A stretch of 53,064 nt of DNA from a virus: positions 1 to 53,064 of IMG/VR virus record IMGVR_UViG_3300035205_000772. One strand, given 5' to 3'. A model generated the notes under the pieces. It was given only the letters and a program-made list of their open reading frames with translations. It was not told the origin of the DNA and searched no databases. Positions 1-23,256 of the stretch are shown here, piece after piece. The number at the start of each line of letters is the position of its first letter. Position 1 is the first letter of the stretch. A program made the translations under genes and the position numbers.

Positions 1-1198
1 GTATTTTTACTATTCTATTGTGTATTACTTTTCTTTTTGCTTTATCATATACTACGATAGACCAAGGCCCTGCTTTACTTCCTTTACGAACACTCGTCAT
101 AATTTTAGACCACTTACCTTCATTTACTGATTCCATTGGATGACTTTTCATATATTTAACAAATTGTCTTGCTCCGTCAATATATCCTAATAATTCTTTT
201 TTATCAACACCTTTAAAATGTCCACTCTTTAGTGCAAGATTTAGAAGAGCTCTTGTGGATTTACTTTTATTTCTCATTACTATTGCTTGTAATATATCTG
301 CTTGGTCTGAAGTTAATATACCCATTCCAGCTTCATTTACGGATTCATTAAACCCATAAACATATCCACTCTTACTTAAAGTGTTTACGAACTTTGCTAA
401 ATCTTTTTTGTTTCTAAAAGTTTTGATATCAAAGAAATCACTACCATCTTTGTGTTTCTTTTTTCCATTATGATAAGAGATTGTATATTTTGCTGAACCA
501 ACTCTATCTTGTTGATAGTATCTTTTTTTACCTTCATTTACGGATTCAGGTATAATCCATTTCTTCTTTAATGCTTGAGCCCAAGTTTTCTTTGTATGAA
601 ATTCTTTTCTATTACCTGGTGCAACAAACATATAACTTGTTCCTGCTGGATCTTCAGGTATTCCACGATTACCGTGTGTAATTTTTTTCAATGTATATAC
701 TTTTCGTGGATCACTCTTATATCTAATCTTTTGTCCAACTTTAAGTTTCGGGTCTTTGACTGCTTCTTTTACGGATTCAACCTTTTTCTTTTTACCTAAT
801 TCCACTGCAATTCTTGCAACCTCTTTATAACTTTTATTCCATCCCATTTCTTTCATATGAACTGCCAATTGACCAAGTACATGACCATATCCGATTCCTG
901 TACCTTTATGTTGTTTACTCCAATGTTTAATTCTACTAGCTAATGTATCATCAGTAAATTTAGCTTCTAACATAGTTATATTTTCTTTTTTTAATCTACT
1001 TTTTTCTGCTCTACCACGATTTTTAGATTCTGCTTCAAATCCTGCTATTCTACCACCTTTATGTGAAGCATCTTTACCATCACCATTACCATAAGTACCT
1101 TTTTTTCTATTATACTGATTTAACTCAGCTCTATATTTCTTTGCTTTGGTAGATGATTGAAATTTCTTGTATTCTGCTTTATAGTTACGTTCACTCAT
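1..1198 (-). CDS. Modular protein with repeated ESVNE-type linkers (3' end beyond window)
   Basis: The reading frame starts at ATG 1198, sharing one base with the stop of the upstream gene (TAATG), and stays open for at least 399 codons to the left edge. Four nearly identical linkers are visible: ESVKEA at residues 141-146, ESVNEG at 218-223, ESVNEA at 285-290 and ESVNEG at 356-361, so spacing is about 70 residues. Between them lie dissimilar small domains: a basic N-terminal region with a GKDASHK stretch, a VGQKIRY-type small beta-like domain, a YTISYHNGKK domain, a helical SDQADILQAIV domain and a final WSKIMTSVRKG domain. The linker has the aliphatic-x-Glu pattern cut by T4-type prohead proteases, and such a protease is encoded three genes upstream. 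I infer a packaged head-interior polyprotein. The product of each module is unknown; the frame itself is secure. Confidence 0.85.
   Translation of the reverse strand, partial: MSERNYKAEYKKFQSSTKAKKYRAELNQYNRKKGTYGNGDGKDASHKGGRIAGFEAESKNRGRAEKSRLKKENITMLEAKFTDDTLASRIKHWSKQHKGTGIGYGHVLGQLAVHMKEMGWNKSYKEVARIAVELGKKKKVESVKEAVKDPKLKVGQKIRYKSDPRKVYTLKKITHGNRGIPEDPAGTSYMFVAPGNRKEFHTKKTWAQALKKKWIIPESVNEGKKRYYQQDRVGSAKYTISYHNGKKKHKDGSDFFDIKTFRNKKDLAKFVNTLSKSGYVYGFNESVNEAGMGILTSDQADILQAIVMRNKSKSTRALLNLALKSGHFKGVDKKELLGYIDGARQFVKYMKSHPMESVNEGKWSKIMTSVRKGSKAGPWSIVVYDKAKRKVIHNRIVKI
117..778. repeat. Dispersed 17-bp coding repeat encoding ESVNE linkers
   Basis: A 17-base element close to CCTTCATTTACGGATTC on the plus strand (encoding ESVNEG on the minus strand) occurs at 117-133, 330-346, 531-547 and, more diverged, 762-778. 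A further copy at 2949-2965 lies in a different gene. Similarity extends beyond what the protein motif requires: the same serine (TCC) and valine (GTA) codons recur. This suggests recent shuffling or recombination at the linkers. Confidence 0.8.
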
Positions 1199-1575
1199 TA
1201 TCGTAATCCCATAGCCCGTCTTTTTCTCATAGACTTCATTCTCTTTCTTCTAATCATAGCAGACTTTCCTCTTTTCTTAATAGCTGCTCTTTTCATAGCC
1301 CTTCTTTTTTTAACTCTTTGTGCACCCGAAACTCTTACGCATTGCTTTTTTGATGCGACATATCTTTTATTTTTTGGACAAATAACTCTGAGTTTGAGTT
1401 TTTTATTGCGAATAACTCTCTTTTTTCTGAATTCTTGTAAGTTATTCATTATTTCACTAACAAAAACATCAACCATTGTGTTGAATTCTTGTTCGTCATT
1501 AAGAATATCTTCAGTTACTTCATCAAACCAGCCATTTGCTATAGATTCCTTGACTATTCGGTGTAATACAGACAT
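1198..1575 (-). CDS. Small protein with strongly basic C-terminus, head-region
   Basis: A 125-residue protein that begins at ATG 1575, sharing one base with the preceding stop (TAATG). Residues 1 to about 50 are mixed and helical in appearance. From about residue 50 onward it is extremely rich in Lys and Arg, with runs such as KKRRAMKRAAIKKRGK and RRKRMKSMRKRRAMGLR at the end. Such a tail would bind nucleic acid, as in phage internal head proteins. It lies between the prohead protease and the modular ESVNE protein, which fits a packaged or core role, but no family was recognised. A DNA-condensing internal protein is the favoured inference; a scaffold accessory protein is the alternative. Confidence 0.75.
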   Translation of the reverse strand: MSVLHRIVKESIANGWFDEVTEDILNDEQEFNTMVDVFVSEIMNNLQEFRKKRVIRNKKLKLRVICPKNKRYVASKKQCVRVSGAQRVKKRRAMKRAAIKKRGKSAMIRRKRMKSMRKRRAMGLR

Positions 1576-1819: not shown

Positions 1820-2473
1820 TTACATCTCTCTAATAATATCGTTAGCAATAGTTTCTACTTTACACCATTGTCCACATTCATTCGGATTTCTATCATCTAC
1901 TCTATAATCTACACTTTCATTAAGTCTACCCTCGTTTGTTGGGTGTAAGAAAGCGCCTTGTGTAGATGGATTAGATACAAAATCAAATGCTATAAGTTCA
2001 AAATCAGGTTGTACTGCTACAGTTTGTTTACCTGGGTCTTCATCATCTTTTTCATCTATAGTTTCTACTGAACCCATACCTCTTGAAGAGATACCTAATT
2101 TAATACCTGATCTGAATAATTCTTTTAAAATGTTTCCTGCGGGCGTAGGTAGAACTTCTACCTTTCCTACTAAATCATCATTTTCCCACCACATTTCTCT
2201 TATATTATGAGAAACATTTGCTAAGTTGACTACCGAGCTTTCGGGATGGTCTAATTCACCCATTGCTCTACGTTCTTTTATAAATGATTGACCATATTTT
2301 TTTGCTTCCCTTACTAGAATTTCTTTAGGGTAGATTCTACCATTTTGATTTTCAGCATTTGCTCTCTGCAATACACCCTTAACCATTAATTTCCCATTAT
2401 TGGATTTCATGGATTCAGTTATTGTCTCTGGCCTTACTTCAAATGGTAAGTAGTCTACTATAAGTTGTCTCAT
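1820..2473 (-). CDS. 21: Prohead core protein protease (T4 gp21-like)
   Basis: A 217-residue serine protease of the phage prohead family, close to the length of T4 gp21. Visible hallmarks are GELDHPE with the catalytic His near residue 76, GISSRGMGS with the nucleophilic Ser at 129 or 130, and DFVSNPST near 164-171. T4 gp21 cleaves scaffold, capsid and internal proteins after an aliphatic-x-Glu motif during head maturation. The protein itself carries ITE near residue 20 and LNE at 184-186, both possible self-processing sites. The portal lies upstream and capsid genes are expected downstream, as in T4. The start is ATG 2473 behind a GGTGAG ribosome binding site. The assignment is confident. 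Confidence 0.93.
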   Translation of the reverse strand: MRQLIVDYLPFEVRPETITESMKSNNGKLMVKGVLQRANAENQNGRIYPKEILVREAKKYGQSFIKERRAMGELDHPESSVVNLANVSHNIREMWWENDDLVGKVEVLPTPAGNILKELFRSGIKLGISSRGMGSVETIDEKDDEDPGKQTVAVQPDFELIAFDFVSNPSTQGAFLHPTNEGRLNESVDYRVDDRNPNECGQWCKVETIANDIIREM

Positions 2474-2710: not shown

Positions 2711-3337
2711 TTAGTGTAATTGGCCGACTTTATTAGCTAATTTTACTAACCTTTCACTAATTTTTTTCATAGCAGAATGAGTTCGTTTCCAATAAGATGT
2801 AGAATCAACACCTAACTCGTTCTTTAACTTAATATTCATTTTAACTAATTTATCAAGCTCATTCAACTTATCACGAACTTCCATCATAGAACGACCAATC
2901 TTTTGTTTTGATGTTCTTGTTTTATCATTTCTATATTCGTGATATTTACCTTCATTTACATTTTCAAGTTTTTTATCAATCTGTTTTGCTTTACCTGCAT
3001 CAACTCTTTTTACACTAACAACTTTTTTAGCTCCACCTTTAAGTTGTTTAGCAACTACCATTTTTGCAGCACCTGCTGAACCTGCATTAACAATAATAGT
3101 AGCCGTATCACCCATTTCACTGCCTAACTGAAACTTGACTGCAAACTTAGCCTCTGCTAAAGCATATCCACTTTGTTTAGCATTTTTCTTTCGTCTATCT
3201 TTTCCTTTAGCAGTAAATGCGGCAGGTGTCATATAAGAACCACCAGCAGTTACAGTTGTAGAAGCCTCTTCTAACTCTTTTGTTAAAAGATCTCTAATAA
3301 TTTCTTTAAGTTTTGATAATTTAATTGTTTGCGACAT
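2711..3337 (-). CDS. Modular head-region protein with ENVNEGK linker
   Basis: A 208-residue protein with two parts. Residues 1-124 contain a TAGGSYMTPAAFTAKG segment, a glycine- and alanine-rich stretch and several lysines. Residues 131-208 are a helical charged domain. The parts are joined by ENVNEGK at 125-131, matching the repeated linkers of the protein encoded at 1-1198 in both protein and DNA sequence (plus-strand copy at 2949-2965). LEEA near residue 22 and LAEAKF near 60 are further aliphatic-x-Glu candidates for prohead-protease cleavage. ATG 3337 lies inside the upstream gene (17-base overlap) behind AGAGGAAAT. Function unknown; I infer a packaged, protease-processed head protein. 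Confidence 0.78.
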   Translation of the reverse strand: MSQTIKLSKLKEIIRDLLTKELEEASTTVTAGGSYMTPAAFTAKGKDRRKKNAKQSGYALAEAKFAVKFQLGSEMGDTATIIVNAGSAGAAKMVVAKQLKGGAKKVVSVKRVDAGKAKQIDKKLENVNEGKYHEYRNDKTRTSKQKIGRSMMEVRDKLNELDKLVKMNIKLKNELGVDSTSYWKRTHSAMKKISERLVKLANKVGQLH

Positions 3338-4233: not shown

Positions 4234-6057
4234 TTACTTTAATTTAGACTCCTCAAGTTCTTCTTTATATTCGTTTTCTATCATTTCAGCCTCATTTATT
4301 AACTTATAATCCTTTTTGGTGAATTTCTTCATATTTTTCTTTAATCCATCAAAATGTGCAAGTGCTAAATGCGGACTATAACTCTTTTTTCTATCATGCT
4401 TACCTATTGGATCTCTACCTCTTGCGCCACTATCTTTTCCATATTTTCCACCCTCTTTTGGTCTTCCTGCACCGTTCCAACCACCTGGAGGTGAACCACC
4501 TATATCATCCAACTCGTGTCCTGTCCTACCCGCTTGTGCATCTGAGGGTGTTCCTTGTGCTTCACCACTCTTTGCAGGATCATTACCCTCATTTTCTATC
4601 TGTGATCGTCTGAATTTCTGTTTGTAATCAAATACAATTTCATTATCCATTTCTTTAATTTCTTTATCCGTAAAATTAAATATATTCTTATAAATCCACT
4701 CTGTAGAAACTAAACCATCTTGTATCATAGACGAAGCTAATGTAGTTTTACTATTCCACAACTCAACTTTTTCAGTTTCATAAATTGTAGATGGATTTGT
4801 AAGATTTAATTCAAAGTTTACAAGTTCTTCATCTGTAAATCCTTGTGCATATAAATGAACTATTGCAATTTTCGTCAATTCAGATACAGTAATTCTTTGG
4901 ATTCTTTCAATCGTTCTTGCAAACCTTACATCTTCTGCTGCAAGTGTAGCTTTACTACCAAGTCCTTCTTCATATCCAAGAAATGCTTTTGGAACACGAA
5001 GTGCTGCTAGCATTTTATTTTTAAGATATTCAATATCTTCTATTGCTTCATAAGTCAATCCTGGCAAAGAATCAATTTGTGTTCCACTATCTCCACCACG
5101 TACAGGCAAGAAAAAATCTTCCGTAACATTTTGAATATTATATTTCAAATTATAATCACCTGTAGTATTATCAATTATAGGCGCTTTCTTCATCTTATTG
5201 ATGATTTTTTGCATATAGTTATCAACTTCAGCGGGTGGTATGTTTCCTATATCTACTCTAAACACTCTCTTTTCTGGTGCTCTCATAATACGGTGTATTA
5301 ACATAGCATCTTCCATCAACTGTAACTGCTTCCATACTTTTCTTCCTTGTTCAATCATAGACTTACCATATGGAAGATAATTAGAATCTGAAAGTAATCT
5401 GAAATGTGCTACTTCATAATTTTCAAGTTCATATGGTTTATCTTTACCAAACTGTATCCTACTTTGCATAGCATGTATATTTTCTGACTGTTCAAGGTGG
5501 AATTTAACAAGTTGTGGATTCTCTGCATCTATACCTTCTACTCTTACAACATCATATGCAGACATTGGATTTACATTTGTAATACCATATTTTTCATTAA
5601 TTTCTAATTGTAAAAAGAAATCTCCATATTTACACATATTACGAACCCAAGGCCACAAATTAAATTCAACATTCAATATATCATAAAAAAGATTATGTAA
5701 TATTTCTTTAATATTAGAATTATCACTATTAATTTCTATAACATTACCATATTCAGATTTCATTGTTGATTCATCTGCATAGATATCAAGTGCTGATGAG
5801 ATTATGCCATCACTATCCATTGTTTCATAATCTTTAAATAATCCTATTCTTTGTGCTTTTTTTGCTACGGCATCCGATACGGCAGAAACTCCATAACCAG
5901 AATACAATCTTGTATATCTGTCAATTAAGTTTCTTCTTGCCATCATTTGAGCTTTATCTGTATCTGCAACTTTTAATTTTCTACCACCAACGTTTCTAAC
6001 AATAACGTTTGTAGAAAATAATCTTTGTAGTCTACCAAATAATGATTTATCAGCCAT
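4234..6057 (-). CDS. 20: Portal vertex protein (T4 gp20-like)
   Basis: A 607-residue portal protein, somewhat longer than T4 gp20. Recognisable family segments include SLFGRLQRLF at the N-terminus, the DGIISSALDIYADES region, the long wing/stem region, and GLGSKATLAAEDVRFARTI followed by RIQRITVSELTKIA. Portals form the dodecameric ring at the special capsid vertex through which DNA enters and to which the tail attaches. After about residue 500 comes a Gly-, Pro- and Lys-rich, probably disordered stretch (DDIGGSPPGGWNGAG and similar), then a charged helical end, which is an extension on the core fold. The start is ATG 6057 behind GAGGT; the stop of the terminase gene is 11 bases upstream. Confidence 0.92.
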   Translation of the reverse strand: MADKSLFGRLQRLFSTNVIVRNVGGRKLKVADTDKAQMMARRNLIDRYTRLYSGYGVSAVSDAVAKKAQRIGLFKDYETMDSDGIISSALDIYADESTMKSEYGNVIEINSDNSNIKEILHNLFYDILNVEFNLWPWVRNMCKYGDFFLQLEINEKYGITNVNPMSAYDVVRVEGIDAENPQLVKFHLEQSENIHAMQSRIQFGKDKPYELENYEVAHFRLLSDSNYLPYGKSMIEQGRKVWKQLQLMEDAMLIHRIMRAPEKRVFRVDIGNIPPAEVDNYMQKIINKMKKAPIIDNTTGDYNLKYNIQNVTEDFFLPVRGGDSGTQIDSLPGLTYEAIEDIEYLKNKMLAALRVPKAFLGYEEGLGSKATLAAEDVRFARTIERIQRITVSELTKIAIVHLYAQGFTDEELVNFELNLTNPSTIYETEKVELWNSKTTLASSMIQDGLVSTEWIYKNIFNFTDKEIKEMDNEIVFDYKQKFRRSQIENEGNDPAKSGEAQGTPSDAQAGRTGHELDDIGGSPPGGWNGAGRPKEGGKYGKDSGARGRDPIGKHDRKKSYSPHLALAHFDGLKKNMKKFTKKDYKLINEAEMIENEYKEELEESKLK

Positions 6058-6068
6058 TTTTACCTCAC

Positions 6069-7646
6069 TTAGTTAATTAACCACTCCAATGACTCTTTTT
6101 CTTTCTCTGGGCCAACGTGCCAATCCCAAGAATCGGGTCTATTTTCTTCTGGAGTGTATATGCCTTCATTTAATTGAAAGCTATCTAAAGTTTTTCTCTG
6201 TAATTCAATTCCCTGTGCCTTTAATCTTAAAGCAGTTTCTCTTACCCACAAACCAATACCAAAAGATATAACCAAATCGTCGTTATATCCTCTCATTGCT
6301 TCTGCTTTACTTCCATTGTATATAAATACAAATAATTCATCTAATAACCGTTGAGAATAAATACTTACAGCTTTTTCTCTAAAAAATTCTTCTAATTTAG
6401 CAATAACTAATGGTCTTGTCTTCATAGACATTGTAAAACCAGGAGTCATTTTCTTTTCCTCTCTATAATGCTTATTAGTAATCTGTCTTTCAACATCTAC
6501 CCACTTTAAATCTTTACTTGAATAAAATAAATTAGGATATTCCCTATCTATTACTTGTTGAATTGCTGCCCAACCAATATTATTGTTTTCCACAACAAGT
6601 AATGCTTCATTATATTCATTAGAAATATTAACTAACATATTACCAAAATCTCTTGTAGATATTCTACCTTTATATTCTGCTACCTGTTTTACTTCTTCCA
6701 ATTCAATAACGTGAAAAGCAGAGTAGTCTGTAGAGTCTCCTCTACTAACGTCTGCACATACTAAATAATTTTTTGTATAATTTGGCGGCTCCCATACCCA
6801 AACATTACTATCTACTCCTCTTTTTTCAATTGGATCTACAATCATATTTTCTTTAATTTCTTCCAAAATTAAACCATCAATAACATTTTGCCCTGAAGTG
6901 ATAAAATCACAATCACATTCTTGTGCCGCCATTGAAGGGCCTAACAATTTATCTTGTTCATCTCTCCATTCTTGTTCTCTTTCAGGATGTAAAGACCAAT
7001 GTAGTCTAGTAAAATTAAAATCATTCAATCCGTCTTCTGCATCAACCCAAGTTCTATGAAACCAATTACCAACACCATTTGGTGTAGATAATGCAATACA
7101 TTGACCACCCGTTGAAAGTGTCTGAGATGCTGCTGCCCATATTGTATCAATTTTTTCAATAAATGCTGCCTCATCAAGTATCAATAATGACAATGCCTCT
7201 GAACGACCACTTTCATCACTACTTGAAATTGCTTTTACTTGTGATCCATTCTTATATCGTAATGAAAGTTTATTATCTTCAACACATGGTTGTTTTAACC
7301 AACTTGGAAGATTTGCGTGCATTACTCTAATTTTTGTTACAAGATTTTTAGCAGTATCTTGTTTAGTAGCAATAACCAATATATTCTTGTCTGATTGAAA
7401 AGTCATCATCCATAAAGAGTAGCCAGCAGTAATAGTAGATATACCAAGTTGTCGGGCTTTAAGAATTATTTGAAATCTATTTTCTTTAAACTCTTCTACT
7501 GTCTTCTCTTGAAAATCATAAAGATGAAATGGTATCTTACCTCGTATTGGGTGTTGAATATAAGAATACTTCTTTAAAAAATACACGGGATCTTGTGCAC
7601 ATTTTATATATTCCTTCTTTATAATATCTTTATAGTTTTTATCCAT
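6069..7646 (-). CDS. 17: Terminase large subunit (T4 gp17-like)
   Basis: A 525-residue DNA-packaging motor. The ATPase domain shows the Walker A variant ARQLGIST at 64-71, Walker B LLILDEAAF at about 154-162 with Asp158-Glu159, and the coupling motif STPNG near 187. The RNase H-like nuclease domain shows ADVSRGD (Asp299) and TDYSAF, VVENNN (Glu353) and YNDDLVISFG (Asp456/457). It cleaves concatemeric genomes and drives them through the portal encoded directly downstream. In the Walker A loop Ile stands where T4 has Lys before the Thr-Thr pair, a variant I recall from marine relatives. The start ATG 7646 shares one base with the preceding stop. Confidence 0.94.
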   Translation of the reverse strand: MDKNYKDIIKKEYIKCAQDPVYFLKKYSYIQHPIRGKIPFHLYDFQEKTVEEFKENRFQIILKARQLGISTITAGYSLWMMTFQSDKNILVIATKQDTAKNLVTKIRVMHANLPSWLKQPCVEDNKLSLRYKNGSQVKAISSSDESGRSEALSLLILDEAAFIEKIDTIWAAASQTLSTGGQCIALSTPNGVGNWFHRTWVDAEDGLNDFNFTRLHWSLHPEREQEWRDEQDKLLGPSMAAQECDCDFITSGQNVIDGLILEEIKENMIVDPIEKRGVDSNVWVWEPPNYTKNYLVCADVSRGDSTDYSAFHVIELEEVKQVAEYKGRISTRDFGNMLVNISNEYNEALLVVENNNIGWAAIQQVIDREYPNLFYSSKDLKWVDVERQITNKHYREEKKMTPGFTMSMKTRPLVIAKLEEFFREKAVSIYSQRLLDELFVFIYNGSKAEAMRGYNDDLVISFGIGLWVRETALRLKAQGIELQRKTLDSFQLNEGIYTPEENRPDSWDWHVGPEKEKESLEWLIN

Positions 7647-8524: not shown

Positions 8525-11500
8525 TTACCTCACAAACTTCATTGCGCCCAATATTTGATTTACAGGTGCAAATAAACCCGTAAATTTATACATTTTACCT
8601 TTATATTTAAAAACTAAACCCTCTGATGGAACTATTGCAGACGATCCACCTAAAGAATTGATTTTTTCTAAATTTTTCTTTAATACATTTAATTTTTTTA
8701 TATCTTTTGATGATTTTAATACAGAAACTGCTCTTCCTAACTCATTTTTCAATTTTTTAGCGGCGCTTTTCGGATTTACTGCCAAAAATCCTTCCAAATT
8801 CTTTAAAATCTCAGCACCTAACTCTAAAAACAACAATTCAAATGGTTTTATATGGTCTTCTTGTAACTTTTTCAAATTAAACTTGTCAACTCCTTTTGCC
8901 CAACTTAAAAACTTATCATTTTCTATATTTTTATTATCCAATCTGAATGACTTATCTAAATAAGCCCACCTTCTTACTAATGACTCTAAAACTGGTCTTG
9001 ATATCTTATATTTATGTTGTTTTGCACCATTAAAGATATACTCTCTCCAATACATCTCATGATACATACCTAAAGTATCATTATCCTTTAGTTTATAAAT
9101 AGTCTGTAACTTTCTCAACTTAGATAAAAAATATTTTTTTCTTTTTGAATAATTTTGCACTTTTGGTAAACTTAATGCAATTGGTTTTGATATTTTAAAT
9201 TTTCTTTGTACGTGCTGGTTTACCTGTCTAATCATACCTTCTAACATTCTTGCACTACCTTTTGCTTGAGATATAGTTCTACCACTTTCATCTATCTCAA
9301 TACTTCCATGAAAAAATAGTTCAGAAACATCATAATCTATAATTCTTGGTGCTTTAGGATAAATCACTTCTAAATTCATCCACTTACTACCATTACCAAA
9401 TACTTTTTCTTTCTGTTTATCACTCAATGAACCTATTGCTTTTTCTAAATCTTTCATAGCAAATACAAAAGCATCTTTTATATTACCTCTACCTGCAAAT
9501 TTAGAAGCCATACCATTTATATCAAGAGAACTAGCACCAAAATTCTGTAAATTTCCTTTATTTCTAGCTGCTCTTAACTTACCATCTATCCAACTCACCA
9601 TTAAGTTTTGTCCATCAAGTTTCTCTGTAACGTTATCTTCTCTATTCAACTGTCCACTCAAACTCAAATCTATAATATTTTTAAAATCACCAAAAGTTAA
9701 ATGGTTGTCATCAAATGGATGACTCATATGACCTGCTGCTCCACCTTCAATTAATAAATTAACTTCATCATCTAAATTAATTTCGGATAACCCACTTGCA
9801 TATTTTTTTGCTGCTTTATTTCCTTTATTCTTTGCTACCCACCTAACTGCACTTTGGCGATTAACTGTTTTCTTCCTTCCTTTTGGATTAGGATTCTTTA
9901 CTGTATCGGGTGCTGATGTTTTTGCTTTCTTTTCAGCACCTGCTTTCTTTTGTTTACGTGCTTTATATGCTCTATATGCACCAAAACTAACACCTGCTGC
10001 CATAGTTCCAGCACTACCTAAAATCTTTGTATATGGTGCTGTCAAACCTGTAGTAGCACCTACTGCGGTTAATACTAAAAATTTAGTTCCCATTTTTCCC
10101 GAAAACAAATCTTGCATACTATATTCACCCATAGCGGCTGCTGATGCAGCTGATGATAAATCTAAATCATACTCAGGATCTCCGATGAATGTCATCTTAG
10201 TCCAAGCATAAGTTATACCTGCTGCAGCTGCTACACCCATTACTTTTTTTAGTTTTGGATGATTTTTCAAATAATCATCAAGTTTTGCCAAATGTTTTTC
10301 TTTAGATTTCCCAAATTTAGTTTGGTGTAATTTATCGGCTATTTTATCAGGAACATAATTTATAATTTTTTGATACTGCTTAAAACCTTTTTTTGCACCA
10401 TCTAATACTTTATCTACACTAAAATCATTTAATTTAGCAACAGAAAAAGCATTTTTATTCATCATTGTTTGTCTAACTTTATCTAATGGTTGTTTTCCTT
10501 TTTTAGCCCAATCTTTTAAAAAGTTATTAAACTTAACTCCTTCTTCTAACAACATTCCATCTACTTCAAGAAGAAATTCTACTTCTTTATCTAAATTAAC
10601 ACTTTCTTTTAAATCTGTATTCTTATCTGCATTATGTGCACCAGGTGAAACTTTTGATACTCCTATATCAACACCTGTAGTAGTATTATCATCCTTAATA
10701 CCCATCCATTGTACTATTTGCCAACCCAAATTTTGTAAAATTCTATCTTGAACGTGTTGTTTATATTTAGAAATAGCTTCTTTTTCACTTCCACCTGTTT
10801 TACCATATGATACTGCAGGAACAATGCTAGTTTTTAATGTTAAATCCCATCCAGGATCTTCCGCATTTTTACTAATCATATAATCTATTATTTGCCAACC
10901 AATATCTTCAAATGTTTTTCTTATCCACTTCTCAGTATTTATTTTATAATCTGAAAAACTATTATAAAATATAGGTGGTCCATCATCAACGGGAGCACCT
11001 GCCATAATACTACTCTCAACCAACATATGAAATTCATTCCGTACTTTATCTAAATTATTATCAACATATTCATATAATTTACCAAACCTATCTGTCATCA
11101 TTTTATAAACAGAAGCATTCCAATATCCAAAAAGTTTTTTAAACAATAATTGTCGTTGTTTTGGTTTTATTTTAGGATTTCCCAAAATAGTTCTCATAGT
11201 AGTTCCACTAATTTCTTTACCAGCAACATTTACTGATATATGTGGTGCTTGTAGAACATATCCGTGTGTACTAAATCCTTTTAAATCTTTTTTATTCTTT
11301 TTATAATCTTGAAAATATTTACCACCTGATAATCTACCCTTATCCTTCTTTCCAACTACAAATACGGCTACAGTTTTCTTTGGGTTAAATTTTCTATATA
11401 AACTAGCAGGTTTATATGGATTATCCATCAATATATTTTTTGAAGGAATTCCCATTTTAACCATATGTGCTTTTTTCTCTTTAAAATTTAAAGGGTGTCG

Positions 11501-11818
11501 AGGTGGTTTCTGAATATTAGAAGTTACAATATAAACATCATCAAATTGTTTTTGAAGTGATTTATATACTTTTAAATGATGTGGTCCAAATGGTTGAAAT
11601 CTACCTGGATATATAGCAATAATCTTATCCCAATCTTGTGCCTCATCAAGATGTTGTGTACTAAAAGTATCTGTATACTTTATCTGTTTATTTAATTGAT
11701 CTACTTTTTTCTTAGCTTTCTTTACGTATTTTTTACTAGGTGAAGGTAGTACACCTGCAGGTGCACCAAATTCCTCTTTCACATAAGGATCAATTAGCCA
11801 TTGAGTTAACTTATTCAT
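8525..11818 (-). CDS. Fusion of HIGH-type nucleotidylyltransferase and ligase-like nucleotidyltransferase
   Basis: A 1097-residue multidomain protein. Residues about 64-240 resemble the cytidylyltransferase/NMN adenylyltransferase superfamily: IYPGRFQPFGPHH at 69-81 (the HxxH-type ATP loop) and ISGTTMR at 203-209. The middle contains hydrophobic Ala/Gly-rich segments at about 525-545 and 580-620 that could insert in a membrane. The C-terminal part shows covalent nucleotidyltransferase motifs of RNA/DNA ligases: EKLDGQN with the candidate AMP-linked Lys733, then RAARNKG, a LEVIYP segment, and EGLVFK at 1066-1071 with YKFTG just after. No OB-fold follows. FLLE (ending at 418) and LLIE (ending at 691) before Val and Gly look like prohead-protease sites at domain boundaries. 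NAD metabolism or nucleic-acid repair is possible; the exact substrate is unknown. Confidence 0.85.
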   Translation of the reverse strand: MNKLTQWLIDPYVKEEFGAPAGVLPSPSKKYVKKAKKKVDQLNKQIKYTDTFSTQHLDEAQDWDKIIAIYPGRFQPFGPHHLKVYKSLQKQFDDVYIVTSNIQKPPRHPLNFKEKKAHMVKMGIPSKNILMDNPYKPASLYRKFNPKKTVAVFVVGKKDKGRLSGGKYFQDYKKNKKDLKGFSTHGYVLQAPHISVNVAGKEISGTTMRTILGNPKIKPKQRQLLFKKLFGYWNASVYKMMTDRFGKLYEYVDNNLDKVRNEFHMLVESSIMAGAPVDDGPPIFYNSFSDYKINTEKWIRKTFEDIGWQIIDYMISKNAEDPGWDLTLKTSIVPAVSYGKTGGSEKEAISKYKQHVQDRILQNLGWQIVQWMGIKDDNTTTGVDIGVSKVSPGAHNADKNTDLKESVNLDKEVEFLLEVDGMLLEEGVKFNNFLKDWAKKGKQPLDKVRQTMMNKNAFSVAKLNDFSVDKVLDGAKKGFKQYQKIINYVPDKIADKLHQTKFGKSKEKHLAKLDDYLKNHPKLKKVMGVAAAAGITYAWTKMTFIGDPEYDLDLSSAASAAAMGEYSMQDLFSGKMGTKFLVLTAVGATTGLTAPYTKILGSAGTMAAGVSFGAYRAYKARKQKKAGAEKKAKTSAPDTVKNPNPKGRKKTVNRQSAVRWVAKNKGNKAAKKYASGLSEINLDDEVNLLIEGGAAGHMSHPFDDNHLTFGDFKNIIDLSLSGQLNREDNVTEKLDGQNLMVSWIDGKLRAARNKGNLQNFGASSLDINGMASKFAGRGNIKDAFVFAMKDLEKAIGSLSDKQKEKVFGNGSKWMNLEVIYPKAPRIIDYDVSELFFHGSIEIDESGRTISQAKGSARMLEGMIRQVNQHVQRKFKISKPIALSLPKVQNYSKRKKYFLSKLRKLQTIYKLKDNDTLGMYHEMYWREYIFNGAKQHKYKISRPVLESLVRRWAYLDKSFRLDNKNIENDKFLSWAKGVDKFNLKKLQEDHIKPFELLFLELGAEILKNLEGFLAVNPKSAAKKLKNELGRAVSVLKSSKDIKKLNVLKKNLEKINSLGGSSAIVPSEGLVFKYKGKMYKFTGLFAPVNQILGAMKFVR

Positions 11819-11824
11819 TCATAA

Positions 11825-11989
11825 TTACCTTATTTGTCGTTCTGCTATTTCCTTTTTAACTAACTCTTTTAATTTTTTCTTAACTGCCAATTCAGTTAAA
11901 TCATTTTTAACCATATTTAACTCTTTTGGTGTTACTCTTAATCTCTTTTTTCCGATTTCTCTCGGTTCATCTATGTGAAATTTTCTCAT
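11825..11989 (-). CDS. 54-residue basic helical protein
   Basis: A short frame from ATG 11989 to TAA at 11825-11827, starting MRKFHIDEPREIG and continuing with a lysine-rich helix to the end (KKKLKELVKKEIAERQIR). AAAGG stands shortly before the start. It overlaps the stop of the CxxC-protein gene by four bases (ATGA), and its own stop lies six bases before the start of the 1097-residue fusion protein, so it fits the packed operon. No family was recognised. Overlap, ribosome binding site and lack of any competing frame support it as real. Confidence 0.65.
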   Translation of the reverse strand: MRKFHIDEPREIGKKRLRVTPKELNMVKNDLTELAVKKKLKELVKKEIAERQIR

Positions 11990-12150
11990 TTGTTTACCTT
12001 TTTATATGGTACTACTTTGTTTAAATAATCTTTTCTAAGCTCACATCCATTACATTCTTTAATTTTACCTACTGTAACAGTTTTTATAGCTCGAGACACA
12101 GTATCTCCTAACCCCTTATCATTTTTTATTAAATTTTTTAATTTAATCAT
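11986..12150 (-). CDS. 54-residue CxxC phage protein
   Basis: A short frame from ATG 12150 to TGA at 11986-11988. The product has a KGLGDTVSRAIKTVTVG segment and then ECNGCELRKDYLNKVVPYK. The pattern of Cys-x-x-Cys followed by xxRxxxLNxxxPYK is one I recall from many small proteins in tailed phages of diverse hosts, where the function is unknown. The two Cys could bind metal or form a disulfide. GAGAT precedes the start. It lies three bases after the putative papain-like gene and overlaps the next small gene by four bases, close to the endolysin. Confidence 0.75.
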   Translation of the reverse strand: MIKLKNLIKNDKGLGDTVSRAIKTVTVGKIKECNGCELRKDYLNKVVPYKKVNK

Positions 12151-12153
12151 AAT

Positions 12154-12483
12154 TTATCTCGGTGGTTTTAAATCCCAAGGACCCCAATGTTTATTTCTTA
12201 CCATAGCCAACCCTGTCTCTTCAGGACTATATTTATAAATCTTATATCCTTTAACTGGAAAATTACCTAATGCATAATATAATTTTTTTGGAAAATTTAT
12301 ATCTTGTCCATTACTTTGGTCAATACACCTACTACCATGTTCTACCCAGGCGTGTCCAAATGGTTTTCCATCTGATTGTAAAATTCCTACACCATGACAA
12401 AGTTTCCAATTCTTTGCATCAGAAGCAGACATTTTCTGCATTACAATTCTACCATTCGCCATATAGCAATCACCTTTTGGCAT
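12154..12483 (-). CDS. Small putative papain-like protein next to endolysin
   Basis: A 109-residue protein with a possible Cys-His-Asp triad: GDC with Cys6 at the N-terminus, FGHAWVE with His44, and CIDQSNG with Asp55. This order and spacing resemble very small papain or transglutaminase-like folds, where the nucleophile sits on the first helix and His and Asp on the following strands. The SNGQDINFP and LYYALGNFP segments also look family-conserved. It starts at ATG 12483, sharing a base with the stop of the endolysin gene (TAATG). It could cleave peptide or isopeptide bonds in cell wall or virion proteins; this is inference. The alternative is a non-enzymatic structural protein. Confidence 0.72.
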   Translation of the reverse strand: MPKGDCYMANGRIVMQKMSASDAKNWKLCHGVGILQSDGKPFGHAWVEHGSRCIDQSNGQDINFPKKLYYALGNFPVKGYKIYKYSPEETGLAMVRNKHWGPWDLKPPR

Positions 12484-12965
12484 TAGACCGACAATGCTCT
12501 ACGATACCAACCAAACAAAAATCTTTCTTGTTCAGGTTTCTTATTCACTATATCATAATAGTGTTTTAATCTGTAACAACGTACTCTTTCTAATTCAGGT
12601 GTATGTTTTGCTAATGCGGCTTTAGTACCTGGCCCAAATCCACCATCAACTGATATTTTTCCACCCTTACCATTAATTGCTCGTTGTAAAATCTTTACTG
12701 CAGTTCCTCTACCCTGGTTTACACACATATCAAAAAATATATGTTTTAAATTGTCTGGTAAATCATCTACTTTATTTCTATCCCAATAATCTTTTTTGTA
12801 GATTTCTTTAGCACCCTCTACGGTAAGATTTTTGATATCTACGTCAGGATAAAACCTTTTAGCAATACCAAAATTAGTCTCACCACCCAAATCTTTCGGA
12901 TCGTGGACATATCCACCCTCATGTTCTAGAGTTAACTCAATAATCTCATCGAATGTTGTTAACAT
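12483..12965 (-). CDS. Endolysin, glycoside hydrolase family 108-type muramidase
   Basis: A 160-residue lysozyme. The N-terminal half has the GH108 signature LEHEGGYVHDPKDLGGETNFGI at about residues 13-34, with catalytic Glu in HEGGY. The C-terminal half contains a peptidoglycan-binding-like region (DGGFGPGTKAAL). Enzymes of this family cut the glycan strands of peptidoglycan at lysis. I place the start at ATG 12965 behind AAGGAAAA; a longer in-frame reading extends into the upstream kinase gene and adds an implausible basic leader. No signal peptide or signal-arrest segment is visible, so it would need a holin, and none is recognised nearby. Confidence 0.9.
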   Translation of the reverse strand: MLTTFDEIIELTLEHEGGYVHDPKDLGGETNFGIAKRFYPDVDIKNLTVEGAKEIYKKDYWDRNKVDDLPDNLKHIFFDMCVNQGRGTAVKILQRAINGKGGKISVDGGFGPGTKAALAKHTPELERVRCYRLKHYYDIVNKKPEQERFLFGWYRRALSV

Positions 12966-12966
12966 A

Positions 12967-13716
12967 TTATTTTCCTTGTTTTTTAAGAATTTGTTGTTTT
13001 TTAACCCATTTTTTTGCAATAGCATTCTTAATAGGTTTCTTAATAAATTTACCAATACCTTTCCCCACTAACATATTAAATTTTCTTAACGCTTGTTTTG
13101 AATTTAATGTAGCATTATTATCAACTAATAAAAAATTAGCATTTCCAAATAAACCTTGAAAATATGCCATATTTTTTTGTACATCTTTCCAATACTTTTC
13201 TACAATCTCTGATGGAAGTTTTCTCGCTCTTTCCATATTTCTTTTTTGTGCTACATCTAAACTTGTATTCACAAAAACCATAAAAGTATCATAACCCATA
13301 TTAATCAATTTTTGTCGTTCTGCCTTTACATCACCATATTTATGACCTGTTCCATCAATAACGACTCCTAATCTACCATTAGTATAAAGTTTCAATCTTT
13401 GTTTACTTAATGCCTTTGTATGAGTTCTCATTCCACTATAATCATCAGATTTTGGATCAGTTAATTGTTTAAATAACTCATCAGGCATCATATCTATATC
13501 AACACTTCCAAAATACTTTTTCAAAAACATTTCCAACTCTGTATCTTGATTAACCATTTTAAGACCATAGGCAGAAATATTCACGTTATTTGGAATACCA
13601 AACAATTGACTAGCGACATATGATTTACCACTACCAGGTCCACCTGCAAGAAAAACTGCCTTGAATATTCCTGGATCGTTTATACCTTCGATTAATAAAT
13701 CCATTAATTTGATCAT
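12967..13716 (-). CDS. P-loop kinase with capsid-targeting-like N-terminus
   Basis: A 249-residue P-loop protein. The Walker A motif FLAGGPGSGKS covers residues about 22-32 (Lys31), and a later VVIDGTGHK segment resembles the second motif of zeta-toxin or polynucleotide-kinase-type small-molecule kinases. An RARKLP segment with nearby basic residues could form the lid. The C-terminal 40 residues are very basic (KKPIKNAIAKKWVKK). Residues 1-10, MIKLMDLLIE, followed by Gly, match the short hydrophobic capsid-targeting peptides of T4 internal proteins, which are cut after aliphatic-x-Glu. I infer a kinase that may be packaged and injected. The substrate is unknown. ATG 13716 follows GAGG. Confidence 0.85.
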   Translation of the reverse strand: MIKLMDLLIEGINDPGIFKAVFLAGGPGSGKSYVASQLFGIPNNVNISAYGLKMVNQDTELEMFLKKYFGSVDIDMMPDELFKQLTDPKSDDYSGMRTHTKALSKQRLKLYTNGRLGVVIDGTGHKYGDVKAERQKLINMGYDTFMVFVNTSLDVAQKRNMERARKLPSEIVEKYWKDVQKNMAYFQGLFGNANFLLVDNNATLNSKQALRKFNMLVGKGIGKFIKKPIKNAIAKKWVKKQQILKKQGK

Positions 13717-13736
13717 AAAAAAGCCTCATTATATTA

Positions 13737-15221
13737 CTAATAAATATCTTGTTTAGTAAAAACCTTTACTCCATAACGCTTTTGAAAATCTAAAGCATCT
13801 GTCTCATCATTAACAATTGGCTGTCCTTTTATGTTTAAACTTGTGTTTAATACCATAGGACACCTTGTTTCTTCAAAAAATTGTTTTATTAACTCATAAT
13901 AAGCAGGATTATCATCTTTACTTACCGTCTGAACTCTTGAAGTTCCATCCACATGACAAATAGCAGGATATTTTTCAGGATACTTACAATCTGCTACAAA
14001 CTGCATAAACTGAGATTTCCGAACAGGCATATCAAAGATTTCATGTGCATATTCCTCTAATACAGATGGTGCAAAAGGTCTAAATTCTTGTCTATGTTTA
14101 ATTTTGTTTACTTTATCTTTTATATCATCACCTCTTGGGTCAGCAAGTAAACTTCTATTCCCTAATGCTCTTGGTCCAAATTCTGCTTTACCATTTGCCA
14201 CACCAACTATGTTTCCCTTGAGTAGTTCTTTACTCACTTGAGTAACAGGGTACTCACCTTTTATATTATATCCTGTAAATGGTGTTTTCCAATTAATATG
14301 TTCACCATATACATATGCCGCACAACCAAGTGATGAACCTGCATCTCCTGGATTTGGAAATATCCATAAATTAGGATAATAATCTTTTGCTATAATTGAA
14401 TTAGCTACACAATTCAATGCTACTCCACCCATATAAACACAATTTTTAGTTTCGGGTACTAACCGTTGTGTTAATTTAAATATTTTTTGGATTTCTTCTT
14501 CACATATCCATTGTACATTTGCTGCTACATCAAATTTCCACTTATCACTATCATCGTCAGGATAAAAATCTAAATCCCAAGCCGAACATCCTCGATGAAG
14601 ATTCATACGAGTTCTAATTAAATCATCATATATTCTATTTTTTATTTTTTTATCTCTCTGACCCCAAGCATCCATTCCCATTAGAATATATTCATCTTCT
14701 TGTGGTTTCAATCCAAGTCTTTGTGTCATAGCTGAATAAAATAACCCAAGTGAATGTGGATACTTCTTTGACCAACGTTTTTCTAATTTATTTCCACACC
14801 CATACCATATAGACATTACATCCCATTCACCAATAGCATCTATAACTACAATTGCCGCTTCATCATAAGGTGAAGTGTAATATCCTGCTGAAGCATGAGA
14901 TAAATGATGTGGAACATACTGAACTTTATTATATATACCGAATTGTTTTAGATATTGAGATGGAATATTAGATGTATTAAATACTTCTCCGTATTGACCT
15001 GCCCAAAGTTGTCTTGTCTTTTTAAGATATGGTTTTTCAAACCATGCTACCTTATCAGGCATTCCATATGAAAGCGCTTCGTGTACCATTTCTTCATTTA
15101 ATTCAGCATCAAACTTTTTACCACTATATCTTTCTGAATGACCTGCGAAAAGTATTTCACCATCTTCTATAACACTTAAAGCTGCATCATGATTCAATGC
15201 ATTAAAACCAAATATTCTCAT
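13737..15221 (-). CDS. Carbamoyltransferase, NodU/CmcH/TobZ family
   Basis: A 494-residue enzyme of the O-carbamoyltransferase family. The N-terminal YrdC/Kae1-like domain shows NHDAALSVIEDG, the metal-binding VPHHLSHASAGY and VVIDAIGEWD; the middle has YMGGVALNC. The C-terminal domain shows GKAEFGPRALGNRSLLADPR and CPMVLNTSLNIKGQPIV. Such enzymes transfer a carbamoyl group from carbamoyl phosphate, through carbamoyl-adenylate, to hydroxyl groups of sugars or antibiotics. Length is near the shorter end of the family. It begins a long co-directional island of glycan enzymes and overlaps the upstream small gene by four bases (ATGA), so it probably decorates the same glycan. Relatives occur in several T4-like cyanophages. 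Confidence 0.92.
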   Translation of the reverse strand: MRIFGFNALNHDAALSVIEDGEILFAGHSERYSGKKFDAELNEEMVHEALSYGMPDKVAWFEKPYLKKTRQLWAGQYGEVFNTSNIPSQYLKQFGIYNKVQYVPHHLSHASAGYYTSPYDEAAIVVIDAIGEWDVMSIWYGCGNKLEKRWSKKYPHSLGLFYSAMTQRLGLKPQEDEYILMGMDAWGQRDKKIKNRIYDDLIRTRMNLHRGCSAWDLDFYPDDDSDKWKFDVAANVQWICEEEIQKIFKLTQRLVPETKNCVYMGGVALNCVANSIIAKDYYPNLWIFPNPGDAGSSLGCAAYVYGEHINWKTPFTGYNIKGEYPVTQVSKELLKGNIVGVANGKAEFGPRALGNRSLLADPRGDDIKDKVNKIKHRQEFRPFAPSVLEEYAHEIFDMPVRKSQFMQFVADCKYPEKYPAICHVDGTSRVQTVSKDDNPAYYELIKQFFEETRCPMVLNTSLNIKGQPIVNDETDALDFQKRYGVKVFTKQDIY

Positions 15222-15628
15222 ACCAAATGTTCTACTCCTGGATCACTTGGATCCCTTATATCTGCGCCTTCAACTATAACTCTTCTTCTTATATAAAGAC
15301 CTTTTTCAAAATCAGTTATCTTATCTAAAGTTTCTATTATTTCATTTTCTTTTGGCAATCTATTAAGTTCTCTTTTACTAAAAACAGTTGTAACATAGTT
15401 TTTTGGCCAAATTTCATTATATTCTGCATTTTTATCTTGAGGCCCTTTTATATAAACTTCAAAAACATCAAATGTATTACGTGATTCCATTTGAAAATTA
15501 TCTACGAAATTTTTATAATCTGATATCAACCGCTTTCCAGGCATATGAGAAAAATAATTAATTATTTCTTCTCTTGTACTAACTGCAATATCTTTATAAC
15601 TTTTATTATATAAAATTGCCATTATCAT
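15218..15628 (-). CDS. Unrecognised 136-residue protein of the glycan island
   Basis: A soluble, mixed alpha/beta-looking protein of 136 residues starting at ATG 15628; a second in-frame ATG two codons later is also possible. It has no Cys and no obvious nucleotide-, metal- or sugar-binding motif. The most distinctive stretches are KSYKDIAVSTREEIINYF and LYIRRRVIVEGADIRDP. It is locked between a B12-type radical SAM gene and the carbamoyltransferase gene, overlapping the latter by four bases, which suggests coupled translation and a shared pathway. I do not recognise a family; a partner or small accessory enzyme of the modification pathway is possible. Confidence 0.75.
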   Translation of the reverse strand: MIMAILYNKSYKDIAVSTREEIINYFSHMPGKRLISDYKNFVDNFQMESRNTFDVFEVYIKGPQDKNAEYNEIWPKNYVTTVFSKRELNRLPKENEIIETLDKITDFEKGLYIRRRVIVEGADIRDPSDPGVEHLV

Positions 15629-15631
15629 AAA

Positions 15632-16918
15632 TTATCCATTAAAAGAACTATACTCCATAGATTCTGGATTTAATTTGTTTAACCAATGATACAAATCTTC
15701 AAACCTTTCTTCTAAATCTTTATTTGTTGCCAATATCTCACCATTACCTATCTTTTTAAGATTTACATGACTCTTTGATGGGTAAGACTGAACATATTCT
15801 CTAAACCTTTTATGTATTATCTCTACACCATAGAAATCAGGATTCATATAAATAGGTGTACCAGGATATGGTGTGAATAATAAACAAATCCATTTATCAG
15901 GTTTTACATCTTCTATAAATTTCTTAACTGCCTCTATAGACTTATCTGTTTCTCCTGGTAGTCCTGTAATAATATAAACTTTTGCTTTTATTCCCCATTT
16001 TTGTATAAGTTTAACAGCGTTTCTGTGCATATCAGTAGTGGCTTTTCCTGCTTTATTAACAACCTCTAATATTTCATCGTCTGCAGATTCAAATCCAATT
16101 CCAACTTCTCTACAACCTGCATAATATAATAATTCCATATATTCATCACTCACCAATACTGAACTAATAGAACACCTAAACCTAATATCCAAATCATGTA
16201 ACTTGGGAGCTAATTTTTGAAATCTTTTTTTATCAATAATAACATTATCATCTAAAAATCTAAAATGTCTACACCCATACTTTTCAATCATTAGTTCTAT
16301 TTCTTCTATAACATTTTCTGCACTTCTAAATCTTGTTTTCTGTTGTAGGTTGGCACAAAAAGCACAAGCGAAAGGACAACCTCTACTTGTCATTAATGTT
16401 GCACCAATAACTTCACTTTCGTAGTTATATCCACCCCATAAATCTGCACTTGCTGCTCTATGGTCAGGAAGTAAGTGTCTTGCTGGATGTGGGATTGTGT
16501 CTAAATCTACTATCCTATCACCTCTTTGTAATCCTTTTGGTTTCTCTGTGCATATTTTAGTTATAATACTCTCTGCCTCATCTTGAACCACACAATCAAA
16601 GTCATCCACACAATCATCTGGTAACCAAGTTGCGTGTGGGCCACCTAAAATGGTATATGCCTTATCACCATACTTCTTTTTAATATTACGAGCCACTTCT
16701 TTCATATCATCTATTTGTGGTGTAACGGCAGTAATACAGTAGATATCACCTTTTGGTGGATTATCATACGAATTGTAATCTTCTCTTAAATCCCACAACT
16801 CACATTCAAAACCATCTCTCTCTAAGACAGCGGCAATGTATAATGGACCCAAAGGTGCATATGCAAATTGTTTTGCATCCATTTTAGCATCAGGGTTTAC
16901 TATGATTACTTTTTCCAT
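15632..16918 (-). CDS. B12-binding-domain radical SAM enzyme
   Basis: A 428-residue protein with an N-terminal cobalamin-binding-like domain (residues about 1-130: APLGPLYIAAVLE, ILGGPHATWLP, VVQDEAE) and a radical SAM core with CxxxCxxC at Cys181, Cys185, Cys188 in SRGCPFACAFC. Later segments IGFESADDEIL and ITGLPGETDKSIE are typical of the class B/MiaB-like core. Members methylate unreactive carbons or rearrange substrates. I choose ATG 16918, which shares a base with the preceding stop and follows GGAGAG; a start five codons earlier would overlap the upstream gene further. The next upstream gene encodes an amidinotransferase. Substrate unknown. Confidence 0.88.
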   Translation of the reverse strand: MEKVIIVNPDAKMDAKQFAYAPLGPLYIAAVLERDGFECELWDLREDYNSYDNPPKGDIYCITAVTPQIDDMKEVARNIKKKYGDKAYTILGGPHATWLPDDCVDDFDCVVQDEAESIITKICTEKPKGLQRGDRIVDLDTIPHPARHLLPDHRAASADLWGGYNYESEVIGATLMTSRGCPFACAFCANLQQKTRFRSAENVIEEIELMIEKYGCRHFRFLDDNVIIDKKRFQKLAPKLHDLDIRFRCSISSVLVSDEYMELLYYAGCREVGIGFESADDEILEVVNKAGKATTDMHRNAVKLIQKWGIKAKVYIITGLPGETDKSIEAVKKFIEDVKPDKWICLLFTPYPGTPIYMNPDFYGVEIIHKRFREYVQSYPSKSHVNLKKIGNGEILATNKDLEERFEDLYHWLNKLNPESMEYSSFNG

Positions 16919-22603: not shown

Positions 22604-23256
22604 ACTATCACCGAAATATCTTTTCTATTTTTCCAAGTTGCAGGCAATTCTTCATCATTTTTAACACAGAATCCGATAAGATTATTTCTATCTTCTTTTG
22701 CAAAAGTATATGTTGGATTTACCCAATGTGGTATTCTTAATGAATGGTTAATTAACACCAATCTATTTGGATCAGGAAAAATAGAAAGTATTTCTCCACC
22801 ACTTGAAACTTGTAGTTGGCCGCCCCAATCATATTTCCAAAGTTCTTTTGTTAAATATAATATGTACCCAGCCTCTCCCATATAATCATCATAATGACAT
22901 CGTATGTAATCCTTACCATTATTTTTAATCTTTGTTGCTTGATGTCTAAATTGCCCTAAGGCATCTCCATTAACCTCTTTTATTATAGGTTTTATATATT
23001 CATCAAATACCCCTAATACATAATCATCAGATGCTACATCATGACTCGACCAAAAATGTGCCAAATAATCTTCGGGTGAATCAGGAAATCGTTTATCATT
23101 GGAAGTCTCCCACAATTTATATCTACCTTCTCTGATTTGATCAATTTCTACAAAATCTTTTGCAGAATTAAATATTTCAACCATTTCACTATAAACCTCT
23201 AATGGTAAGAAATTATCTATTATTACGTAACCATTTTTTTTGTACTCACTTAACAT
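22600..23256 (-). CDS. 2-oxoglutarate/Fe(II)-dependent oxygenase
   Basis: A 218-residue dioxygenase with a full set of ligands: HYD with His121 and Asp123, the distal His177 in RIPHWV, and Arg190 in KEDRNNLIGF for 2-oxoglutarate. The YILYLTKELW and DWGGQLQV strands before the distal His are typical of the prolyl 4-hydroxylase-like group common in T4-like marine phages. It would hydroxylate a peptide, sugar or lipid with 2-oxoglutarate and oxygen. It is coupled to the fucosyltransferase-like gene (four-base overlap) and to an SDR gene (11-base overlap), which favours a glycan-related substrate, but a protein substrate cannot be excluded. Confidence 0.88.
   Translation of the reverse strand: MLSEYKKNGYVIIDNFLPLEVYSEMVEIFNSAKDFVEIDQIREGRYKLWETSNDKRFPDSPEDYLAHFWSSHDVASDDYVLGVFDEYIKPIIKEVNGDALGQFRHQATKIKNNGKDYIRCHYDDYMGEAGYILYLTKELWKYDWGGQLQVSSGGEILSIFPDPNRLVLINHSLRIPHWVNPTYTFAKEDRNNLIGFCVKNDEELPATWKNRKDISVIV

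Follow-up and report, generated by a model that had tools for sequence, protein, structure and literature searches.

The DNA analysed here (the window) is an entire linear viral fragment of 53,064 bases, and its last gene raises the question of why a single reading frame should carry one short motif, ESV(N/K)E(G/A), at four places between separate small modules. Our reading is that the frame probably encodes a string of unrelated head proteins (beads), which would be cut apart at these linkers in the prohead, in part retained and injected, and exchanged at the same linkers.

The polyprotein and its modules

Because the window is the entire fragment and the frame reaches its end, the polyprotein is truncated. 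Its parts are as follows; L numbers denote related viral loci, and a vertical arrow marks the bond after the Glu at which a cut is predicted.

2-1198, minus strand: polyprotein gene, an open frame of at least 399 aa that runs off the contig end; the last gene of the window
986-1198, minus strand: module 1, residues 1-71; PHROG 6437 family (E=3.9e-14)
965-973, minus strand: candidate cut site MLE↓A at the boundary of modules 1 and 1b, residues 76-78; relatives have 1 or 1b alone
779-964, minus strand: module 1b, residues 79-140; relatives occur in other contexts
764-778, minus strand: linker 1, ESVKE↓A, residues 141-145; L003 homology stops at 763, the L005 block begins at 778
548-763, minus strand: module 2, residues 146-217; replaced by other modules in L003
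533-547, minus strand: linker 2, ESVNE↓G, residues 218-222
347-532, minus strand: module 3, residues 223-284; predicted strands plus helix
332-346, minus strand: linker 3, ESVNE↓A, residues 285-289; pLDDT <50 in the model
134-331, minus strand: module 4, residues 290-355; three helices predicted
119-133, minus strand: linker 4, ESVNE↓G, residues 356-360
2-118, minus strand: module 5, incomplete, residues 361-399; full in L002, also in L005

A first-pass annotation of this DNA had reported the motif at four residues, and frame 2-1198 confirms all of them (ESVKEA starting at residue 141, ESVNEG at 218, ESVNEA at 285, ESVNEG at 356); in 20,000 shuffles of the same polyprotein the average is 0.00035 motifs. 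As a list of boundaries the four linkers stand, but MLE↓A, indicated by the relatives with either half alone, had been left out. The N-terminus, MSERNYKAEY, is not a T4-type 10-residue capsid targeting sequence ending in aliphatic-x-Glu. The L002 contig, 99.92% identical to the window over 11,198 nt, carries the polyprotein on with a fifth ESVNE and another module, and a complete polyprotein is present in the relative L003.

PHROG 6437, a family of no assigned function, is the sole PHROG match of the polyprotein, and Pfam gave no match above cut-off. By tblastn, relatives of module 1 are found as a small separate protein in T7-like cyanophages; a search of named phages with the whole polyprotein matched nothing beyond this module, and modules 3-5 gave one match only against named phages, at chance level (E=4). 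In the AlphaFold2 model of modules 3-4, one domain has strands plus a helix and the other three helices, both at a pLDDT near 80, with pLDDT <50 at all three linkers. One continuous fold across the linkers, which had been named as the observation that would speak against separate modules, is thus not what the model shows for modules 3-4, which are predicted as separate folds with disordered linkers, while the model of modules 1-2 was poor and not usable for this comparison. A PDB fold search with the model of modules 3-4 returned nothing significant (best E 0.039), and a PADLOC scan for defence-related beads gave one weak HTH match only.

Position among the head genes

The genes upstream of the polyprotein encode the terminase, the portal, two head-cluster proteins, the S77 protease and a basic gp68-like protein, among them:

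1198-1575, minus strand: basic prohead protein, N-terminus MSVLHRIVKE↓S; PHROG head scaffolding (E=0.0015)
1820-2473, minus strand: prohead protease of gp21/S77 type; Peptidase_S77 PF03420 (E=8.8e-29, above cut-off)
2711-3337, minus strand: second head-cluster protein, with an ENVNE↓G junction ahead of a conserved C-terminal module
4234-6057, minus strand: T4-type portal (gp20); Pfam E=7.9e-78
6069-7646, minus strand: large terminase subunit; PHROG E=1.1e-46

By inspection alongside T4 gp68, the C-terminus of the 1198-1575 protein is like that of gp68. The gp21-like protease proposed earlier is borne out not only by the S77 profile but also by PHROG head maturation protease (E=5.7e-53) and the T4 protease structure 5jbl (E=1.1e-14). 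Its His and Ser line up with those of T4 (GELDHP versus GELNHP, GISSRG versus GVSSRG), that is with His85 and Ser140, which we take to be the catalytic residues of gp21. In the 216-kb contig L003 the order is terminase, portal, protease, gp68-like protein and polyprotein, followed by three small proteins, an acidic scaffold-like protein and a gp23-like capsid protein. Judged by portal and protease, Microcystis phage Mel-JY01 and Flavobacterium phage immuto come closest among isolates; the array is absent from the corresponding head region of both. In the Mel-JY01 homologue of 2711-3337, AVNE↓V takes the place of the window's ENVNE↓G junction, and in L013 and L015 array modules are located at the junction matching this VNE↓G.

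Three other features of these genomes were observed in passing. The immuto scaffold (L256 9955-11196) contains a tandem duplicate of ~70 residues, copy 1 behind GVNE↓G and copy 2 behind NLEE↓G. In the uncultured phage LR756508 (L257) the portal and prohead protease frames (11986-16146, 22703-24427) have long intein-like insertions. The window itself carries at ~13.7-53 kb, on the minus strand, a long gene run, unusually large for a phage, in which we recognized by eye only resemblances to radical SAM, sugar-nucleotide epimerase, carbamoyltransferase, split transketolase and glycosyltransferase-like genes.

Related arrays

Searching by protein yielded 37 viral loci, and linker DNA patterns gave many more. 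The resulting set comprises at least 170 non-redundant array frames, each with at least 2 strict linkers, in related contigs; a search for other proteins with the linker had been suggested by the first-pass annotation. The phages that carry the arrays are large, T4-like and marine. For 142 of the 170 listed arrays, the same locus also contains a gene of head formation or packaging (terminase, portal, protease or capsid); strand agreement with head genes holds in 471 of 471 comparisons and for all 142, and the capsid gene lies downstream of the array in 40 of 40 cases among the matches listed. Together with the neighbours in the window, these figures support the earlier placement of the polyprotein among prohead genes.

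Among the arrays in the matches listed, internal modules have a median length of 69 aa and contain 16% Lys versus 7% Glu. The modules form at least 363 clusters (a small sample, with a few non-array frames included), 138 of them with at least 2 members, and most are without match to an annotated family. Module families are met with many different neighbours: module 3, in its 16 array copies, has 14 distinct neighbours on the left and 11 on the right, and the order of module 2 differs in L005, L009 and L013. Modules found apart, in other order and with other neighbours in relatives argue for the separate small modules that had been claimed for this frame.

Bacterial and archaeal genomes in the collection searched lack the double-linker DNA pattern, which leaves an origin of the arrays in prophages or hosts unsupported. 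The array sequences derive mostly from metagenome contigs and have a repeated 15-nt word in common, as they would if the arrays were assembly chimeras formed at the repeated linker. We regard this explanation as extremely improbable: the shared word is only ~15 nt, shorter than the usual assembly words; the same order recurs across contigs (window and L002 at 99.92% through the whole array, one order from L024 to L026); and in isolates, too, related modules are found at comparable junctions (ESVQE↓S in phage C48C1, LDE↓G in Methylophilales phage Melnitz).

Linkers as points of exchange

The strongest point of this analysis, missed by the earlier reading, is that the linkers are points of module exchange among phages. 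The window and L003 share 99.26% DNA identity across 10,436 nt, from 11198 down to 763; position 763 is the first base beyond linker 1, and from there the L003 modules diverge. The segment 569-325 (module 3 with both flanking linkers) is common again to L003 at 95.5%, while the remaining modules differ, and L005 displays the same pattern against the window with other modules. When DNA homology is defined as ≥90% identity over ≥100 nt, 49% of its ends fall ≤6 nt from a linker in both partners, versus 0.5% at random; this holds for arrays among the matches listed, and the pairs compared are not mutually independent. Protein comparison puts 11-17% of homology ends inside linkers of both partners, versus 0.2-0.7%.

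At synonymous positions, conservation of the linker DNA is unusually high. Because many arrays were collected by linker DNA, codon statistics were restricted to the loci gathered by protein: the linker serine codon is TCC in 49% of cases versus 4% elsewhere in the same proteins, the valine codon is GTA in 99% versus 47%, and all 15 bases are identical in 31% of ESVNE linker pairs versus 4.5% expected. Two linker spellings, GAATCCGTAAATGAA and GAATCAGTAAACGAA, tend to accompany different locus sets, which suggests copying of linkers within lineages; the latter is found for instance in L016, L018, L022 and L024, and the former in L003, L005, L006 and L013. The codon conservation agrees with linker DNA being copied or recombined; a function of the linker at the DNA level is possible and is not needed for the explanation. 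For the modules, pN/pS falls only moderately short of 1, with several families close to 1, and is not decisive.

Linkers as candidate protease sites

T4 gp21 cuts after L/I-x-E, with a preference for L or I at P3 (PMC9026906). In the arrays the linker Glu is preceded by V/I-x, and in 67% of 520 distinct contexts an A, G or S follows it, versus 20% background for the arrays listed; counting each module family once gives 64%. Where modules are without a preceding ESxxE, an aliphatic-x-Glu is retained in 71% versus 8-17% at shifted control positions; the same junction test by family gives 68% versus 7% (one control). The excess of A/G/S and the retained aliphatic-x-Glu lend support to the earlier proposal that VNE or VKE before Gly or Ala are gp21-type cleavage sites. 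The P3 residue of the linkers, mostly V, unlike the reported T4 gp21 preference, is a point against the cleavage reading, although V at P3 also occurs at the capsid-protein site of these phages. The capsid proteins of the group have a conserved NQAxQ[LI][LIV]xE↓[AS] where T4 gp23 has FLTE↓A, and it is from this site and the junction statistics that we infer an aliphatic-x-Glu specificity for the 1820-2473 protease, the proposed cutter. In our judgement cleavage at the linkers by the S77 protease is well founded enough, from sequence comparison, to be called likely with good confidence.

If instead the modules stayed joined in a multidomain structural protein, ESVNE would serve either as a flexible linker or as a binding motif that recurs, and its DNA would be merely a recombination seam. 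The conservation of synonymous positions would agree with this, and exchange at linkers is possible without cleavage. Yet the A/G/S after the Glu and the kept aliphatic-x-Glu fit a protease site and not a plain linker, and the linker and the cut site of a T4-like signal stand at the same position relative to the module, so that we consider permanently joined modules very unlikely. Module 4 offers an example of this equivalence: it occurs alone in L147 as MIKLKDLIKE↓GGMGIL, beginning at the same residue as after the linker.

Targeting-like N-termini and virion proteins

T4 IPII and IPIII start with MKTYQEFIAE↓A. Among 2,062 deduplicated frames in the loci, 183 have [FLIM][ILV]xE with Glu at position 10, versus 20-63 frames at the control positions 7-9 and 11-19. 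Many of these N-termini read M(I/A)KLKDLLxE, in genes partly related to each other. For 97 Glu-10 frames with cargo like array modules, 18 align at offset -1 to +1, including module 4 in L147. In the 216-kb contig, 4 of 6 frames with a targeting-like N-terminus (Glu/Asp at 10) fall within 51-66 kb, a stretch in or beside the head region. An amphipathic-helix N-terminus, MKITKxQLRxxIREE, is present in few frames only.

The window has two further frames of this kind, both on the minus strand. The P-loop protein at 12967-13716 (GGPGSGKS) begins MIKLMDLLIE↓G, with Glu at position 10, and is a candidate head cargo enzyme. The 1097-aa protein at 8525-11818, with a cytidylyltransferase-like domain, starts MNKLTQWLID, with Asp at position 10; its C-terminal part contains, by eye, EKLDGQN as in nucleotidyltransferase-type ligases, and is found behind a targeting-like N-terminus in relatives (L124).

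A good share of arrays open with a DUF3008-type domain, a stand-alone relative of which in cyanophage S-SCSM1 (ORF93) is annotated as a virion protein. So is the adjoining ORF91, an NMN adenylyltransferase starting MKSFLQFLKE↓A; NMN adenylyltransferases are reported in cyanophage virions, and the measured virion proteome of S-SCSM1 includes this enzyme (PMC9602691). ORF92 of the same phage (L285 2436-3998), also annotated as a virion protein, has about seven aliphatic-x-Glu↓A/G/S sites and is perhaps a distant multi-cut head protein.

These virion annotations bear on a third explanation, in which the polyprotein is a prohead core or filler like T4 gp22, gp67 and gp68, whose pieces leave the head with nothing delivered. 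The array gene does sit among core genes, and T4 core proteins have several aliphatic-x-Glu sites and fragments that mostly exit the head (PMC9026906). The beads, by contrast, resemble folded domains of a size like mature T4 IPI (76 residues, PMC3012670), they differ between close relatives, unlike core genes, and the stand-alone relative of the frequent first bead is the S-SCSM1 virion protein mentioned above; on balance we find a core role unlikely.

Proposed mechanism

The modular architecture, the location with head genes, the site-like constraints on residues and the exchange breakpoints at linkers are established in this analysis, and we judge the reading of architecture, place and exchange taken together as very likely. 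For cleavage, entry into the head, retention and delivery, and for what the individual beads do, we infer the following. The frame would code for small, lysine-rich head proteins that are unrelated to one another and strung together by gp21-type sites, ESVNE↓A/G. As a precursor, the whole string would go into the prohead core, where the phage S77 protease would cleave after each linker Glu, freeing the beads inside the head. At least some beads might then remain with the DNA and reach the host, by analogy with T4 internal proteins; retention and delivery have, in our judgement, slightly better than even chances. The linker would also be an exchange point, its short conserved DNA permitting in-frame swap, gain or loss of whole modules, with each exchanged bead keeping a cut site on either side. 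Besides the V at P3, several observations weigh against this reading: the window polyprotein bears no T4-like targeting signal, the closest isolates are devoid of arrays, and module pN/pS is only moderately below 1 or near it.

More tentatively, and with the odds somewhat against it, the arrays could be a cassette system for injected head proteins, a variable-length string of host-directed small proteins in which a 15-nt linker is at once seam and protease site; a foreign bead would thus need no separate targeting signal in order to be packed and released.

Comparison with known systems

Cleavage of polyproteins by a viral protease is typical of many eukaryotic viruses. In the open literature, leaving aside subscription papers and preprints, we found no description of the motif or of prohead-protease polyproteins, and a phage cargo polyprotein with beads exchanged at predicted cut sites has no earlier account in the searchable literature. 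If the proposal is true, the linker by itself suffices to recognise the beads as probable virion cargo, of which there would be a large pool.

In the giant phages SPN3US and phiKZ, ejection proteins are likewise head proteins cut after a short x-x-Glu motif; the gp21-like protease of SPN3US cuts after AXE, and long propeptides are cut several times (PMC10052503). These cuts mostly take off N-terminal propeptides, and no chain of unrelated modules joined by one standard linker is reported there (PMC10052503). Protein-fragment shuffling in phages (PMC10684548) resembles the arrays in that parts of proteins are exchanged; in the arrays the exchange seam coincides with a predicted protease site.

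The closest comparisons are with T4. Its core proteins gp22, gp67 and gp68 share with the polyprotein the prohead cluster and several predicted protease sites per chain: gp22 and gp67 show several aliphatic-x-Glu sites, the window polyprotein four ESV(N/K)E↓(A/G), and gp21 cleaves the T4 core proteins into multiple fragments (PMC9026906). T4 core proteins are conserved among relatives, whereas the array consists of exchangeable unrelated modules, and no sequence relation of the polyprotein to them was detected with Pfam and PHROG profiles. The internal proteins IPI, IPII and IPIII are, like the beads, small, basic and varying among relatives (for the arrays, a median of 69 aa, 16% Lys, and differences between phages 99.3% identical), and they are cut after aliphatic-x-Glu by a gp21-type protease, as is predicted for the beads. 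The array phages also share T4-like starts, with many genes beginning like MIKLKDLIKE. Each T4 internal protein is encoded by a gene of its own and bears its own signal, while the arrays have many beads in one frame and the window polyprotein is without a signal N-terminus. T4 internal proteins are injected and block GmrSD nucleases (PMC12373910); this anti-restriction role is known for T4 and for the beads only suggests a test. By these analogies, the array would be like a fusion of two T4 features, the internal proteins and the multi-cut core proteins.
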